A stretch of DNA of 42,866 nucleotides, taken from NCBI RefSeq assembly GCF_008974185.1, contig NZ_BKZP01000029.1, forward strand, positions 1-42,866, given 5' to 3'. A model generated the notes under the pieces. That model was not told the DNA's origin. It saw nothing but the letters and a program-made list of their open reading frames with translations, and did not search any database. The DNA comes from Weizmannia acidilactici (lineage in GTDB: Bacteria; Bacillota; Bacilli; Bacillales; Bacillaceae_C). Of the stretch, positions 13,209-37,087 are shown piece by piece (within the stretch, counting starts at the first letter, position 1; every line of letters starts with the position of its first letter). A program made the translations under genes and the position numbers.

Positions 13209-13513
13209 TGTCAGTACCCCCTTATGTTCATCAATTGTTAAGATTTCGTATGTATCCTATCCATTACAAATATCTTGAATTTCGAAATTTTACATTCTAT
13301 ACTTTTCAGGTGTAGAAATAGTGCAAATTAAAACCGGGCATCTAACCCGCCCTCACATCATACTTCCGACGACAAGCGTCTAAGGTGCTTAAAAACACCC
13401 ACAGCATGACCGAGTGCCTCACGTGATAACGGATGGGAGACATGTCCGAAAAGCGCATCGCAAAACGATAAACCCACTAAAATACTTGGATTTTGTCCAG
13501 AAAAGAAAGCCGA
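13209..13513. other. Intergenic region with unexplained structured segment
   Basis: About 305 bp separate gtaB from the phosphatase gene. The gtaB leader takes the left part. From about 13330 to 13500 the base composition changes. A short hairpin is possible around GGGCATCTAACCCGCCC, and the minus strand stays open in one frame for about 45 codons without a start or ribosome-binding site. I do not recognise it. It could be a remnant of a mobile-element end. Confidence 0.3.
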
Positions 13514-29527: not shown

Positions 29528-29668
29528 AAAAAGCCCCCTGGGAAAAGGAGGCGCGATTTTACAAAGTGTCTCCTTATCTATCAGGCATGCCTGTTGGATT
29601 TAGCACCGGGCCGGATGGCTGGTTGCTGAGGTTTCACTGGGCCAAGTCCCTCCACCTCTCTTGATAAG
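29528..29668 (-). promoter_or_regulatory. SAM-I (S-box) riboswitch controlling yitJ
   Basis: On the minus strand the leader reads CTTATCAAGAGAGGTGGAGG at 29668-29649, then a GGCCC segment, GAAACC, CAGCAACC and GGTGCTAAATCC. It closes with GATAAG at 29578-29573. These are the P1 helix, kink-turn and SAM-pocket elements of the S-box aptamer. Downstream, GCCTCC pairs with GGGGGC ahead of a T run (about 29528-29555), giving the terminator of the expression platform. High SAM should terminate transcription before yitJ. Confidence 0.96.
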
Positions 29669-29703
29669 GGTATTCAGCTGAACGTGCGTAATATTTCGAT
29701 TTA

Positions 29704-30713: not shown

Positions 30714-31679
30714 TTATTCCTCATCCAAAAACTTCTTAATTTCTTCTGTATTTTTTGCTTTGTCCACTTCCAGGACGGCGCCGACTTCCGGATAGTAGGC
30801 ATCGGTATAAGTGCCCGCAATTGGAACTGTCATGGTTTTCACCTTAAGGTTTTCGCCGAGCACCACGTCTTTCACCAACGCGAGAATGTCCATTTTACTC
30901 ATATTTGTGGAAAGGTAAGGCTGAATCGTTCCAAGCAGTTTTGGTGCTTTGGCAAGGCCGTTTACGCTGAATACTTCTTTTTGAAGCGCTTTTAACACTT
31001 TTTGCTGGCGTGCAACCCGGCCGAAGTCGCCTTGTGCGTCTTTTCTGAAGCGTGCGTAGGCGAGCAGTTCTTTCCCATGCATGAGCTGTTTGCCCGGGTA
31101 AAGCGTCATGCCAATGTTTTTCGACATTTTATGTTCCACATTGATCTCGATGCCCTGTGGAGCCAAAGTGTCGACAATTTTCACGAAGCCTTGGAAATCC
31201 ACAAGCGCGTAATACTGCACATCGATGTCAAAATTGGCTTTGATTGTTTTTCTCAGCAGTTCAACGCCGCTTTTCTGGTTGTCTAAATTGCCCAGATAAT
31301 AGGCAGTATTGATTTTATAGTTTTTATAACCCGGGATTTCCGCATAGATATCCCGCATGATTGAAACGAGTTTGACCTGGTTCTTTTTCGGGTCATACTG
31401 GGCAATCATAATGGTGTCCGTTCTGGAATCTTCTTTGCCTCTCCTATCGATCCCGAGCAGCAAAATATTGGTTCGGCCATTGGCATCTTTTTTTCCATTA
31501 AACTCTAAATTATCCATATTCAAGGCATCGCCCGGTTTCGTTTGGTGGACGCCTGCGTAATATTGATAGGCTGTATATCCCGCTCCGGTTACGATCAGCA
31601 ATAAAAAGAGCAAAAGAAAAACCCTGCGCCAACGGACTTTTGCCCGTCTCTTCTTCCTATTCGATACTCTTGATTCCAT
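30714..31679 (-). CDS. LytR-CpsA-Psr (LCP) family cell-wall ligase
   Basis: I choose the ATG at 31679, five bases after AAGAGGG; the ATG 11 codons earlier has no such site. The 321-residue protein has a basic cytoplasmic N-terminus (KKRRAKVRWRR), one membrane helix (about 20-40) and an extracellular LCP domain with NILLLGIDRRGKEDSRTDTI, VSIMRDIYAEIPGY, KINTAYYLG and AYARFRKDAQGDFGRVARQQ. These carry the Arg/Asp residues that bind the polyprenyl pyrophosphate. LCP enzymes attach teichoic acid or capsule to peptidoglycan, so this could anchor the polysaccharide of region 1. It is divergent from the small-RNA array and shares its upstream region. Confidence 0.92.
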   Translation of the reverse strand: MESRVSNRKKRRAKVRWRRVFLLLFLLLIVTGAGYTAYQYYAGVHQTKPGDALNMDNLEFNGKKDANGRTNILLLGIDRRGKEDSRTDTIMIAQYDPKKNQVKLVSIMRDIYAEIPGYKNYKINTAYYLGNLDNQKSGVELLRKTIKANFDIDVQYYALVDFQGFVKIVDTLAPQGIEINVEHKMSKNIGMTLYPGKQLMHGKELLAYARFRKDAQGDFGRVARQQKVLKALQKEVFSVNGLAKAPKLLGTIQPYLSTNMSKMDILALVKDVVLGENLKVKTMTVPIAGTYTDAYYPEVGAVLEVDKAKNTEEIKKFLDEE

Positions 31680-31817
31680 AGAATCCCTCTTGTTTTTATA
31701 GTCTGTCTTCATTATTATTATCTAAAAGCCGCGTTTTGTCACGAGTATTTTGCTGGAATTTTGTTTTTCTTGTCGAAGGGATTCTGTTTGTAAAAATTTA
31801 CATAAACTTTATATAAT

Positions 31818-31850
31818 GTTAAAAATCTTTTAACAGTGGCTTGGTATGAT
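31818..31850 (+). promoter_or_regulatory. Promoter and operator of small RNA 1
   Basis: Half-sites GTTAAA (31818-31823) and TTTAAC (31829-31834) flank 5 bp. Ten bases later comes TATGAT (31845-31850). The two half-sites also form an inverted repeat, so the site may read in both directions, including towards the divergent LCP gene. Confidence 0.65.
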
Positions 31851-31856
31851 GCTTTT

Positions 31857-31976
31857 GTGCAGGGATAAGCCGCAGATAGGCGTCCACTTGAACGCGCCTT
31901 ATCTCAGCTGTTTGAGCTTGTTTTTCTTAGAGCTAATCCCCCTTTTTTGCCGCCTGCTAGATGCCGGCGGTTTTTT
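31857..31976 (+). ncRNA. Tandem csRNA/LhrC-like small RNA, unit 1
   Basis: Predicted transcript of about 120 nt, the longest and most divergent unit. The 5' half can fold through AGATA-GGCGT with ACGCGCCTTATCT. The unpaired stretch contains AATCCCCCTTTTTT, complementary to Gram-positive ribosome-binding sites. The terminator is CCGCC (31950-31954) with GGCGG (31966-31970) followed by six T (31971-31976). Ends are predicted from the promoter and terminator. No open frame with a ribosome-binding site was seen. Confidence 0.65.
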
Positions 31977-31995
31977 ATAGATTTTTTATCTTGAT

Positions 31996-32028
31996 TTTAA
32001 GGATTTTTTAATTATCGGCAAGTATACT
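31996..32028 (+). promoter_or_regulatory. Promoter and operator of small RNA 2
   Basis: TTTAAG (31996-32001), 5 bp, TTTAAT (32007-32012), 10 bp, TATACT (32023-32028). This unit is one base from the CiaR box known in streptococci (TTTAAG-N5-TTTAAG). Confidence 0.75.
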
Positions 32029-32034
32029 CAAAAA

Positions 32035-32139
32035 TGTAAGGAGGCAGTGGTTAACCCCCCAGTGCCAGTGCCTCCCACTTTTCACAACTTTATACTAATC
32101 CCCTTTACCCCGCCGCCTGCCCTTGTGCGGCGGTTTTTT
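32035..32139 (+). ncRNA. Tandem csRNA/LhrC-like small RNA, unit 2
   Basis: Predicted transcript of about 105 nt. A strong 5' hairpin pairs GGAGGCAGTGG with CCAGTGCCTCC with CCCCCC near the loop. The linker has AATCCCCTTTACCCC. The terminator pairs CCGCCGC (32110-32116) with GCGGCGG (32127-32133) and has six T. Confidence 0.75.
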
Positions 32140-32153
32140 ATTGTTTAAGAGGT

Positions 32154-32186
32154 GTTAAAAATTTTTTAATTTGCCCCTTGTATACT
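32154..32186 (+). promoter_or_regulatory. Promoter and operator of small RNA 3
   Basis: GTTAAA (32154-32159), 5 bp, TTTAAT (32165-32170), 10 bp, TATACT (32181-32186). Confidence 0.75.
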
Positions 32187-32192
32187 TATTCT

Positions 32193-32282
32193 CGTAATTA
32201 GGCAAGTGAGTAAACCTAGCCCTTACGCTTTTTCATAACTTGATACCCCCTTTTTGATCGTTGCTTTTCGCTGCGTTTTTTT
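32193..32282 (+). ncRNA. Tandem csRNA/LhrC-like small RNA, unit 3
   Basis: Predicted transcript of about 90 nt. A 5' hairpin can form between GTAAttAGG and the CCTAgcccTTAC segment. The unpaired stretch is ATACCCCCTTTTTG. The terminator stem (CGTTGC with GCTGCG, one mismatch) is weaker than in its near-copy, unit 6, but has seven T. Confidence 0.7.
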
Positions 32283-32300
32283 ATTTCGATCTTAAACAGC

Positions 32301-32332
32301 GTTAAAGTTTTTTAATTCAGCGCTTGTATACT
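32301..32332 (+). promoter_or_regulatory. Promoter and operator of small RNA 4
   Basis: GTTAAA (32301-32306), 4 bp, TTTAAT (32311-32316), 10 bp, TATACT (32327-32332). This is the only unit whose half-sites are one base closer. Confidence 0.7.
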
Positions 32333-32338
32333 TGTCTT

Positions 32339-32414
32339 ATCACTAAGGTAGTGAATCACACTTTTTCTCAACTCCCCCTTTTCCGTCCTTCTGCTTGATG
32401 CAGGCGGTTTTTTT
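32339..32414 (+). ncRNA. Tandem csRNA/LhrC-like small RNA, unit 4
   Basis: Predicted transcript of about 76 nt. A compact 5' hairpin (TCACTA-AGG-TAGTGA, 32340-32354) is followed by the unpaired CAACTCCCCCTTTTCC. The terminator pairs CTGC with GCAG and CCG with CGG around a three-base bulge, then seven T. It is nearly identical to unit 7. Confidence 0.78.
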
Positions 32415-32420
32415 ATGTAT

Positions 32421-32453
32421 GTTAAGGATTTTTTTATCTGTGTGTTGTATACT
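32421..32453 (+). promoter_or_regulatory. Promoter and operator of small RNA 5
   Basis: GTTAAG (32421-32426), 5 bp, TTTTAT (32432-32437), 10 bp, TATACT (32448-32453). The second half-site is the least conserved. Confidence 0.7.
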
Positions 32454-32459
32454 TGTTTT

Positions 32460-32536
32460 GTAAAGGCAGTGAGCACAAACAGCCCTTTACTTTCTTAATC
32501 CCCTTTTAGCCGTCTGCTTCGTGCAGCGGTTTTTTT
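32460..32536 (+). ncRNA. Tandem csRNA/LhrC-like small RNA, unit 5
   Basis: Predicted transcript of about 77 nt. The 5' hairpin pairs GTAAAGG (32460-32466) with CCTTTAC (32484-32490). The linker has TTAATCCCCTTTTAG. The terminator pairs CCG-T-CTGC with GCAGCGG (to 32529) and is followed by seven T. Confidence 0.78.
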
Positions 32537-32551
32537 ATGATTCCGTGGGGC

Positions 32552-32584
32552 ATTAAGACTTTTTTAATACTGCGCTTGTATACT
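32552..32584 (+). promoter_or_regulatory. Promoter and operator of small RNA 6
   Basis: ATTAAG (32552-32557), 5 bp, TTTAAT (32563-32568), 10 bp, TATACT (32579-32584). Confidence 0.75.
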
Positions 32585-32590
32585 TGTCTT

Positions 32591-32679
32591 TGTAATAAGG
32601 CAAGTGAGCTTACTAAGCTTACACTTTTTCATAGCTAACCCCCCTTTTTTGGCCGTTGCTTTTCGCAGCGGTTTTTTTT
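32591..32679 (+). ncRNA. Tandem csRNA/LhrC-like small RNA, unit 6
   Basis: Predicted transcript of about 89 nt. The hairpin pairs GTGAGCTT (32604-32611) with AAGCTTAC (32615-32622). The linker carries AACCCCCCTTTTTTGG, the longest C run. The terminator pairs CCGTTGC (32653-32659) with GCAGCGG (32665-32671), then eight T. Units 6 and 7 repeat units 3 and 4. Confidence 0.78.
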
Positions 32680-32697
32680 ATTTCGATCTTAAACAGC

Positions 32698-32730
32698 GTT
32701 AAGGTTTTTTTAATTCAGCGCTTGTATACT
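32698..32730 (+). promoter_or_regulatory. Promoter and operator of small RNA 7
   Basis: GTTAAG (32698-32703), 5 bp, TTTAAT (32709-32714), 10 bp, TATACT (32725-32730). Confidence 0.75.
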
Positions 32731-32736
32731 TGTCTC

Positions 32737-32812
32737 ATCACCAAGGTAGTGAATCACACTTTTTCTCAACTCCCCCTTTTCCGTCCGTCTGCTTGATGCA
32801 GGCGGTTTTTTT
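32737..32812 (+). ncRNA. Tandem csRNA/LhrC-like small RNA, unit 7
   Basis: Predicted transcript of about 76 nt. The 5' hairpin is TCACCAAGGTAGTGA (32738-32752) and the unpaired stretch CAACTCCCCCTTTTCC. The terminator pairs CCGTCTGC (32785-32792) with GCAGGCGG (32798-32805), then seven T. It is the last unit; no further copy follows. Confidence 0.78.
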
Positions 32813-33001
32813 GATAAATCCTGATCCCTGCCAAGTCCGCTCGGGTTGCAAGCAGGCCCGTTTCATGAAACATAAATATAAGCTCTCTTCTTTCTCATGT
32901 AAAAGGCCCCCTTTACATAAGAAACTTTGCTCGAACGGCCATGGGCAGCAAAAGCGGGGCATCTGAAAAATCCGTAAACTGCTATTGCGACAGGCGCTTC
33001 A

Positions 33002-33217
33002 TTATTCATTCATTCTTCGGTTGTAAACAACTCTCGACCAAAAGAAAATTGCACAGCCGATTAATAAAATTGTCAATTGCCATCCAGAGTCATCTTTGGT
33101 AAAAAAATCATATAATGACCAAATTCAAAGTGCTACAGTATAAAATATAAATCCATATTTTGCAGATTGGTCGCTCTGATATTTTTCCATTTCATCAACT
33201 TTTCTGAATTTAATTAT
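33002..33217 (-). pseudogene. Broken small membrane protein paired with the XRE regulator
   Basis: Minus-strand translation from 33217 reads IIKFRKVDEMEKYQSD, then a hydrophobic segment (YGFIFYTVAL), a TGA stop, and continues in frame as IWSLYDFFTKDD, a second hydrophobic segment (ILLIGCAIFFW) and RRMNE. The first codon is ATA where an ATG would give the usual overlap with the regulator stop, and the TGA sits where Trp is expected. It looks like the two-helix membrane partner often found after small XRE regulators, disabled by two point changes. Loss of function is inference. Confidence 0.6.
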
Positions 33218-33414
33218 TGTTCCTCCCCATAATAAAATAATTTTTCAATTTGTGTGTTCAGATGAATTGATAACTTAAATGCCAAAGCCAGACTCGGGTC
33301 ATATTTGTTATTTTCAATGGCATTTATGGTTTGTCTTGTCACTCCACATTTATTTGCAAGTTCCTCTTGTGATAGCTTTAAATGTTTTCGTATGTTCCTA
33401 ATATTATTCTTCAA
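33214..33414 (-). CDS. Small XRE-family regulator
   Basis: The 66-residue protein is a single helix-turn-helix domain: NIRNIRKHLKLSQEELANKC, then GVTRQTINAIENNKYDPSLA, ending in the short tail KLFYYGEEQ. It belongs to the YvaO/Xre-like mini-regulators usually paired with a small membrane protein. I choose the TTG at 33414, five bases after AGGTGG; a GTG at 33423 would add three residues but has no ribosome-binding site. The likely partner gene downstream is broken. A SigA-type promoter lies 40-67 bp upstream. Confidence 0.88.
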   Translation of the reverse strand: MKNNIRNIRKHLKLSQEELANKCGVTRQTINAIENNKYDPSLALAFKLSIHLNTQIEKLFYYGEEQ

Positions 33415-33453
33415 TTCAACCACCTAAAAAGTAAAAAACTCTTTACATTTATG

Positions 33454-33481
33454 ATTCTAATTTATTTCTCAAAAATGTCAA
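33454..33481 (-). promoter_or_regulatory. Promoter of the XRE regulator
   Basis: Minus-strand TTGACA (33476-33481), 16 bp, then TAGAAT (33454-33459). The -35 is perfect. Confidence 0.7.
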
Positions 33482-33504
33482 ATGTATTTTACAATTTTTA
33501 AAAT

Positions 33505-36318: not shown

Positions 36319-37087
36319 CTACCCGCCACTTATGGTGATTTTCTCGTGAATTCTGGCAACTTTACGTTTTTGTTTTTGATAGCTTTGGGCTTCATCCAGT
36401 TTACAGTTGCGTTCTATTGCAAACTCTTTTCGCCTGGAAAGAATGCGTTGTTCTAGCCAGCTTCTTTTCCAATGTGCGAAACCATTTCGGATTGGCAAAT
36501 ATTTCACCTGTTGACAGGATGGCACAATCTTTTATTCCGATGCCCACACCGACAGCCGATCCGGTTTTCGGGAGTTCCTGGACTTCCGTTTCTGCAAGGA
36601 TGGATACAAAATATTTTCCGCTTGGATTCTGCCGAATGGTGGCGTTCAAAATACGCCCTTCTACTTCCCTGCTTTTTGCAAACTTAACGTATCCGAGTTT
36701 GGGTAATTTGATTTTATTTCCAGAGATTGCAATGTTTCCGTTTGTGTACTTTGTTGTGTAGGATTGGACTTTGTTTCTTTTTGACTTAAACCGGGGTGCA
36801 TTGTTTTGTTTTTTGAAGAACCGGATGTATGCGTCGGCCAGATTTCTGAGTGAGGATTGGATCGCGATGCTGTCAACTTCTTTCAGCCAGACGAATTCTT
36901 TCTTGAGTTGGGGCAGTTCAGCAGAACAGGCGCTGTATGTGAGTCCCTTGCCTGTTTCCTTGTATGTGTTATTCCATTTTGCTAAAAAATGATTGAACAC
37001 AAAACGGGAACAACCGAATGTCTTCGTAATCAGGATTTCTTGTTCTTTGTTTGGATAGATCCGAAATTTGAAGGCTTTATGCACCAT
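36319..37087 (-). pseudogene. Truncated, frameshifted TnpB (IS200/IS605 family)
   Basis: The N-terminal 210 residues or so are TnpB: FKFRIYPNKEQEILITKTFGCSRFVFNHFL, LRNLADAYIRFFKKQ and PRFKSKRNKVQSY. The RuvC-I motif should read VGIDLGIKD but reads VGVGIGIKD, so the first catalytic Asp (about residue 182) is Gly. After LEKKLA a frameshift near 36460 moves the sequence to another frame, which gives EQRILSRRKEFA and KRKVARIHEKI before a stop at 36319. The second and third RuvC motifs and the zinc finger are absent. TnpB is the RNA-guided nuclease ancestor of Cas12; this copy cannot be a nuclease. No TnpA is nearby. Confidence 0.88.

Follow-up and report, generated by a model that had tools for sequence, protein, structure and literature searches.

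The closest described relatives of the locus reported here are the csRNAs of streptococci, a set of sibling RNAs that each have their own promoter and a terminator in the available parts of the descriptions (PMC3091779, PMC8186281, PMC4507080). As defined in the excerpts of PMC3091779, a csRNA promoter contains the direct repeat NTTAAG-N5-TTTAAG, located 10 nt before the -10 and with a final G that is invariable in both halves. In the same excerpts, 53 of the 61 csRNAs contain CAU and the others anti-GUG or anti-UUG, and some csRNAs have no stem besides the terminator, or fold in more complex ways. The csRNAs act additively on comC, and four of the six known targets are transporters (PMC4507080, excerpts). 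The csRNA literature, in its available parts, describes CiaRH as absent outside streptococci. A second related group is the LhrC family of Listeria monocytogenes (LhrC1-5, Rli22 and Rli33-1), of which, according to the accessible portions of PMC4132741 and PMC5880928, six of the seven members are driven by a two-component system and which is connected to envelope stress.

The window, i.e. the whole stretch of 42,866 nucleotides of Weizmannia acidilactici DNA that was analysed, contains seven predicted sRNA genes standing back-to-back on the plus strand (31818-32812). The array is flanked by a gene which, following an earlier sequence-only reading, we take to belong to the LCP family (30714-31712, minus strand), and by a presumably XRE-type gene (33214-33423, minus strand). 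The LCP gene is divergent from the array and served as locus marker in relatives. The sequence-only reading had described seven repeats of one plan in this gap, and a repeat search indeed recovered a 38-nt promoter family with seven copies; their start-to-start distances of 178, 158, 146, 121, 131 and 146 agree with the 121-178 bp given earlier for the -10 boxes. In each unit a direct-repeat box is followed at a distance of 10 nt by a -10 hexamer; the RNA predicted downstream contains a linker with a C-run and closes with a terminator that runs into T residues. Predicted RNA lengths are 76-122 nt, varying with the end chosen and close to the 76-120 nt of the earlier reading, and the longest C-run is 4-6 nt in all seven units. 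The only frames of at least 60 aa that reach into the array are one of 78 aa on the plus strand and one of 74 aa on the minus strand at its end. We consider it likely that the gap holds seven sibling genes for trans-acting sRNAs of the csRNA type, which would be controlled by a CiaR-type regulator and block translation starts.

The boxes follow the consensus NTTAA(G/A)-N5-TTTAA(T/G)-N10-(-10), and the -10 is TATACT in all units except unit 1. In unit 1 (31818-31976), the box GTTAAA-N5-TTTAAC (31818-31834) precedes TATGAT at 31845-31850, the RNA is predicted to start around 31857, and the terminator stem lies at 31950-31970. Unit 2 (31996-32138) has box TTTAAG-N5-TTTAAT (31996-32012), a -10 at 32023-32028 and an RNA from about 32035, with a C6 run in the loop of its 5' hairpin in addition to a CCCC linker. 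For unit 3 (32154-32283) the box is GTTAAA-N5-TTTAAT (32154-32170) and the -10 lies at 32181-32186; the RNA is predicted from about 32193, with linker CTTTTTCAT...CCCCC. The half-sites of unit 4 (32300-32414; box 32300-32316) are 1 nt closer, with a -10 at 32327-32332 and an RNA from about 32339. Unit 5 (32421-32537) has GTTAAG-N5-TTTTAT at 32421-32437, a -10 at 32448-32453 and a predicted start near 32460, and unit 6 (32552-32680) has ATTAAG-N5-TTTAAT at 32552-32568, a -10 at 32579-32584, a start near 32591 and linker CTTTTTCATAGCTAACCCCCC. The last unit, unit 7 (32698-32812), carries GTTAAG-N5-TTTAAT (32698-32714), a -10 at 32725-32730, a predicted RNA from about 32737 and a terminator stem at 32785-32805. 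The pattern TTAA-N7-TTAA-N11-TANNNT gave 22 matches genome-wide as compared with 7 in the reversed control, and five of the 22 fall in the 0.9 kb of the array (units 1, 2, 3, 6 and 7); units 4 and 5 deviate from this pattern.

Elsewhere in the window we observed an epsC RNA element (13335-13448, minus strand, 107.8 bits) and a SAM riboswitch (29571-29670, minus strand) ahead of a gene that we take to be homocysteine methyltransferase/methylenetetrahydrofolate reductase-like. On the minus strand at 36319-37087, a transposon-type frame of 228 aa, presumably TnpB-like, is followed by a further short frame; the TnpB-like frame is probably a broken copy.

The same locus was compared in five Heyndrickxia genomes including that of the window (G000), and all five have one to seven units at the LCP gene or close to it, giving a genus total of 17. 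The LCP orthologues in the four other members are 72-86% identical. Units lying immediately before the LCP gene, in the same direction, number four in H. coagulans DSM 1 (G003), three in H. coagulans 36D1 (G002) and two in G004, of which the first is likewise long and in the same place as window unit 1; in G001 a single unit lies about 1.5 kb from the LCP gene, past another gene. In three other genera (G005, G007, G008), inspection by eye of the 1.5-kb stretch preceding the LCP gene revealed no array. The array is thus a feature of the genus, and its copy number varies.

Genome G000 encodes eight OmpR-type regulators, of which one (C19:32317-32991) is a CiaR-type regulator with about 47% identity to streptococcal CiaR. 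Three streptococcal-type CiaR proteins matched it best, at 46.7-47.7% identity, and the other G000 and G002 regulators compared gave 28-37.3%. The operon comprises what we take to be a membrane-fusion protein, an ABC ATPase and a permease, together with the regulator and a presumed kinase. A perfect TTAAG-N6-TTAAG box lies upstream of the regulator, at most 5 kb away and on the same strand, in 14 of 15 genomes (0 in the reversed control); 12 of these 15 genomes were found among 60 relatives and 3 came from another search, and as they are mutually related the 14 cases are not independent events. In most genomes CATAAT or a similar sequence follows 10 nt on, and G004 has a box with one mismatch at the same place. 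In the 289 kb around the regulator 24 boxes were counted versus 2. Because the operon boxes occur in 14 of the 15 genomes, the TTAAG motif can be tied to the CiaR-type regulator. In streptococcal-type genomes TTAAG-N6-TTAAG finds the csRNAs and an HtrA-like gene. The box also precedes a presumably TagO-like gene in four Heyndrickxia genomes (perfect in three, with TTAAT as second half in G004), and in two genomes a gene that we take to be a GT39-like glycosyltransferase; in G523 this gene is next to the CiaR-type regulator, and in G000 the two are on different contigs. These genes would fit an envelope regulon.

Other comparisons of the regulator were less specific. Its matches among solved structures were OmpR-type regulators generally, and no CiaR model was present among the best 25 of 101 NCBIfam matches. 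In a tree of only the G000 and G002 regulators and the query matches, in which one G002 regulator (L100) was missed, clade support was 0.69-0.76, which is weak evidence. The likeness of the partner kinase to CiaH is mainly in the catalytic half, in accordance with the statement in the excerpts of PMC3091779 that CiaH was not found outside streptococci. The CiaR-type regulator probably switches on the array promoters.

The half-sites of the array depart from the streptococcal rule. Both half-site Gs are present in none of the seven window units and one G in four, with core and spacing kept: the half-sites are 5 nt apart in six units, and the distance to the -10 is 10 nt in all seven. The last base of the second half-site is T or C, unlike in the box of the regulator operon in G000, which keeps both Gs. 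The same sRNA array might be driven by another OmpR-type regulator (LisR-like, PhoP or WalR), for which TTTAAT would be the box. This would agree with the T or C endings, with the number of OmpR-type regulators in G000, one of which we take to be LisR-like, and with the search of G003, a 310-contig draft with four units in which no CiaR-type regulator was found at E <= 1e-60. We nevertheless regard it as unlikely, since at the same locus in H. coagulans five of seven units have both half-site Gs in perfect TTAAG boxes, and this is the motif that the operon boxes link to the CiaR-type regulator. Moreover, the LisR element of Listeria is placed upstream of -53 in the excerpts of PMC4132741, whereas the array repeat is in the -35 region.

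We examined how far box and plan extend beyond the genus. Box, -10 and CCCC together matched in 23 of 397 genomes of the order, and outside the genus the matches listed numbered 25, with 28 for the reversed control, which is chance level. Among nine out-of-genus places inspected, the one in G007 had a hairpin, C-linker and terminator, those in G234 and G319 are described below, and six did not fit the plan. A looser unit pattern in 26 genomes gave 9 rows versus 24 in the control; six of these places were inspected, and those in G005 and G007 fit the plan, whereas three do not. In G424 the box is followed by a terminator with CCCC in the loop. With anti-AUG and anti-SD elements added to box and -10, the pattern matched 18 of the 398 genomes examined in the class, with 3 matches in the control. 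The 18 genomes are G000 and 17 of 26 genomes of genus g166, which are found partly by construction as the pattern was worded after viewing streptococcal csRNAs. We take g166 to be Streptococcus because the CiaR proteins of three members carry the exact helix VVEVYVSK(V/I)RKKL printed in Table 1 of PMC3091779, as excerpted.

Some single elements were observed in other genera. Units with box, -10, C-linker and terminator occur at G005:C10:75953 and G007:C1:3869012, in two other genera of the family that both have a CiaR-type regulator. G234 and G319, from one other genus, share a perfect TTAAG-N6-TTAAG box, a hairpin with six C in the loop and a strong terminator, with a poor -10; a CiaR-type regulator is present in G055 of the same genus. 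The element of G234 and G319 may be another box-linked small RNA.

The terminators and folds of the array RNAs are less uniform than their promoters. A terminator had been claimed for every unit, and a scan of 31000-33500 found 10 terminator-like sites versus 2.3 +/- 1.3 in shuffles. These comprise plus-strand sites in units 1, 2, 4, 5, 6 and 7 (unit 4 twice), the 5' hairpin of unit 6, and two sites on the minus strand; the scan of this interval thus hit six of the seven units and missed the weak stem of unit 3. The 5' hairpin proposed for each unit is also uneven. MFE z-scores range from -4.17 (unit 2) to +0.31 (unit 3), with -1.19 for unit 4 (200 dinucleotide shuffles), and the MFE structure of unit 7 is without the hairpin formed by its sibling unit 4. 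With 97% identity over 107 nt, units 4 and 7 are recent duplicates. A repeat array decaying after local duplication, with only one or two active sRNA genes, would agree with this pair, with the shifted box and terminator-stem mismatch of unit 4, with the weak terminator of unit 3, and with the loss of the C-linker in the first H. coagulans unit. Such decay seems improbable to us, as all seven units retain the box, the -10, the C-run and the T-run, although they otherwise differ widely (mean column identity 58%).

Compensatory changes had been put forward as a sign of selection on RNA structure, a claim that the alignments did not bear out. In a gap-free alignment of 8 of the 17 genus terminators, 84.4% of cells pair and one cell is changed on both sides; 305 of 500 shuffles do at least as well, so that covariation is not above shuffles. 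The set left out units 3, 5, 6, G003a, G002a, G004a and G001a, which have other lengths, as well as G003d and G002c, with a terminator identical to that of G003c. With few terminators in the set and little difference between their stems, absence of structure is not implied. The example offered earlier, CCGTTGC/GCAGCGG against CCGTCTGC/GCAGGCGG, shows a stem lengthened by one pair, not a compensatory exchange. An alignment of 14 of the 17 units left the stems out of register and thus gave no basis for a covariance model.

In sequence, the linker is complementary to a start site (AAAAGGGGG-N6..9-ATGAAAAAG). This is clearest in unit 6, where the complement, AAAAAAGGGGGGTTAGCTATGAAAAAG, reads as a Shine-Dalgarno sequence, spacer and Met-Lys-Lys start. 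A C-run of at least 4 is found in all seven units and CAT in two, i.e. the anti-AUG is missing from five; by eye, units 4 and 7 have anti-UUG and unit 2 anti-GUG, and units 1 and 5 have neither. TTTTTCAT ahead of the C-run occurs in two window units (3 and 6) and in 9 of the 17 genus units. The predicted unpaired probability of the C-run is 0.79-1.00, with unit 1 as the exception (0.40), and in some congener units the CAT is mostly paired (0.09 in G004b, 0.28 in G003c). The streptococcal csRNAs, reached via their boxes, have ACTTTTTCATAATAATCTCCC ahead of the terminator, a block common with the window linkers. It is very improbable that the units serve as short mRNAs encoding small peptides, as suggested on the plus strand by GTG frames of 9-33 codons after AAGG in units 2, 4, 5, 6 and 7 and on the minus strand by ATGAAAAAG in a linker complement resembling SD and start codon, since the plus frames give unrelated peptides, the AAGG..GTG arrangement was not found in 10 congener units, the minus frames (3-35 codons) have nothing common beyond MKK, and promoter and terminator direction indicate the plus strand.

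For the favored reading, seven csRNA-type sRNA genes under a CiaR-type regulator, we infer transcription, promoter binding, base pairing, targets and stress signal from sequence; directly observed are the sequence itself, the promoter geometry, the conservation within the genus, the regulator gene and the box of its operon. Envelope stress would probably activate the CiaR-type regulator, which would raise its own operon and the sRNA promoters. As an OmpR-family protein, it would bind the direct repeat 10 nt upstream of each -10, and each sRNA would end at its intrinsic terminator. The linker would act as an imprint of the start site, with the C-run as anti-Shine-Dalgarno, joined in some units by an anti-AUG-AAA-AA. 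The sRNAs are expected to pair with mRNAs that have GGGG-type SD sequences and Met-Lys-Lys starts and keep ribosomes off; many of these mRNAs would encode exported proteins and transporters. Several copies may provide dosage and room for target divergence, and their effects may add up like those of csRNAs on comC. A pattern search for candidate targets in G000 gave nine places, of which two are the array itself, one was dropped as gene-less and six were scored. A peptide-binding-lipoprotein-like gene (G000:C2:100143) was the best partner for six of the seven units among these six start sites, whose selection used the scoring motif itself; unit 6 gave -32.9 kcal/mol with this start site, compared with a minimum of -25.2 for 41 background start sites.

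Taken more broadly, we lean slightly toward the view that the CiaR-csRNA circuit is no streptococcal invention. A CiaR-type regulator controlling its own operon through TTAAG-N6-TTAAG would occur across Bacillaceae and other Bacilli, driving start-site-imprint siblings in Heyndrickxia and perhaps the single units of G005 and G007, with amplification to seven in the window. With a CiaR-type regulator, its box and csRNA-like siblings together in a spore-former that is not a pathogen, the circuit could be examined in a harmless host, and comparison could give it a date. Whether an SD-AUG-AAA-AA imprint is enough to pick mRNAs of exported proteins and transporters would become directly testable, as would the reason why such sibling RNAs multiply.

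The sequence-only reading had proposed a csRNA/LhrC-like array in a Bacillaceae. Its LhrC side is not supported: no Rfam family reached its gathering score within the array, in the search that this reading had asked for, and no match in the permissive list had an E-value below 0.12; the LhrC model (RF00616) gave at best 20.7 bits on unit 6 (E 2.7; gathering score 110). The array does resemble the LhrC family in having seven short siblings with CU-rich sites toward Shine-Dalgarno regions, as it would in its predicted two-component control and link to envelope stress, and differs from it, on the accessible parts of PMC4132741 and PMC5880928, in that LhrC has three redundant CU-rich sites, one of them in the terminator loop. 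The csRNA side gains strength from four findings beyond the reach of that reading, namely the promoter geometry, an anti-start-site linker, a CiaR-type regulator with boxed operon, and the arrays of four relatives, but strict csRNA membership of the window's own units is not supported, owing to the missing half-site G. Because of this G, and because regulator dependence is only predicted, we use the label csRNA-like rather than csRNA. Among the matches listed in a largely open-access literature search, there was no csRNA-like array in a Bacillaceae.

Like the csRNAs as excerpted from PMC3091779, PMC8186281 and PMC4507080, the array consists of predicted sibling RNAs with their own promoters and a terminator, and its direct repeat has the same spacing, with half-sites 5 nt apart and the -10 at a distance of 10 nt (PMC3091779). 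It likewise has a linker complementary to SD and start codon, and the CiaR encoded in the genome by which csRNAs are recognized has its counterpart in the CiaR-type regulator of G000. Some csRNAs are tandem, two in S. sanguinis in the excerpts of PMC8186281, as compared with seven in one gap here. The host belongs to a different order of Bacilli, the half-site G is missing in this species, the 5' hairpin is without the CCTCC loop of streptococcal csRNAs, the SD imprint is CCCCC instead of CTCCC, the kinase is no clear CiaH, and the array is known here from its sequence alone. The locus is best described as a csRNA-like array of predicted sibling sRNAs.
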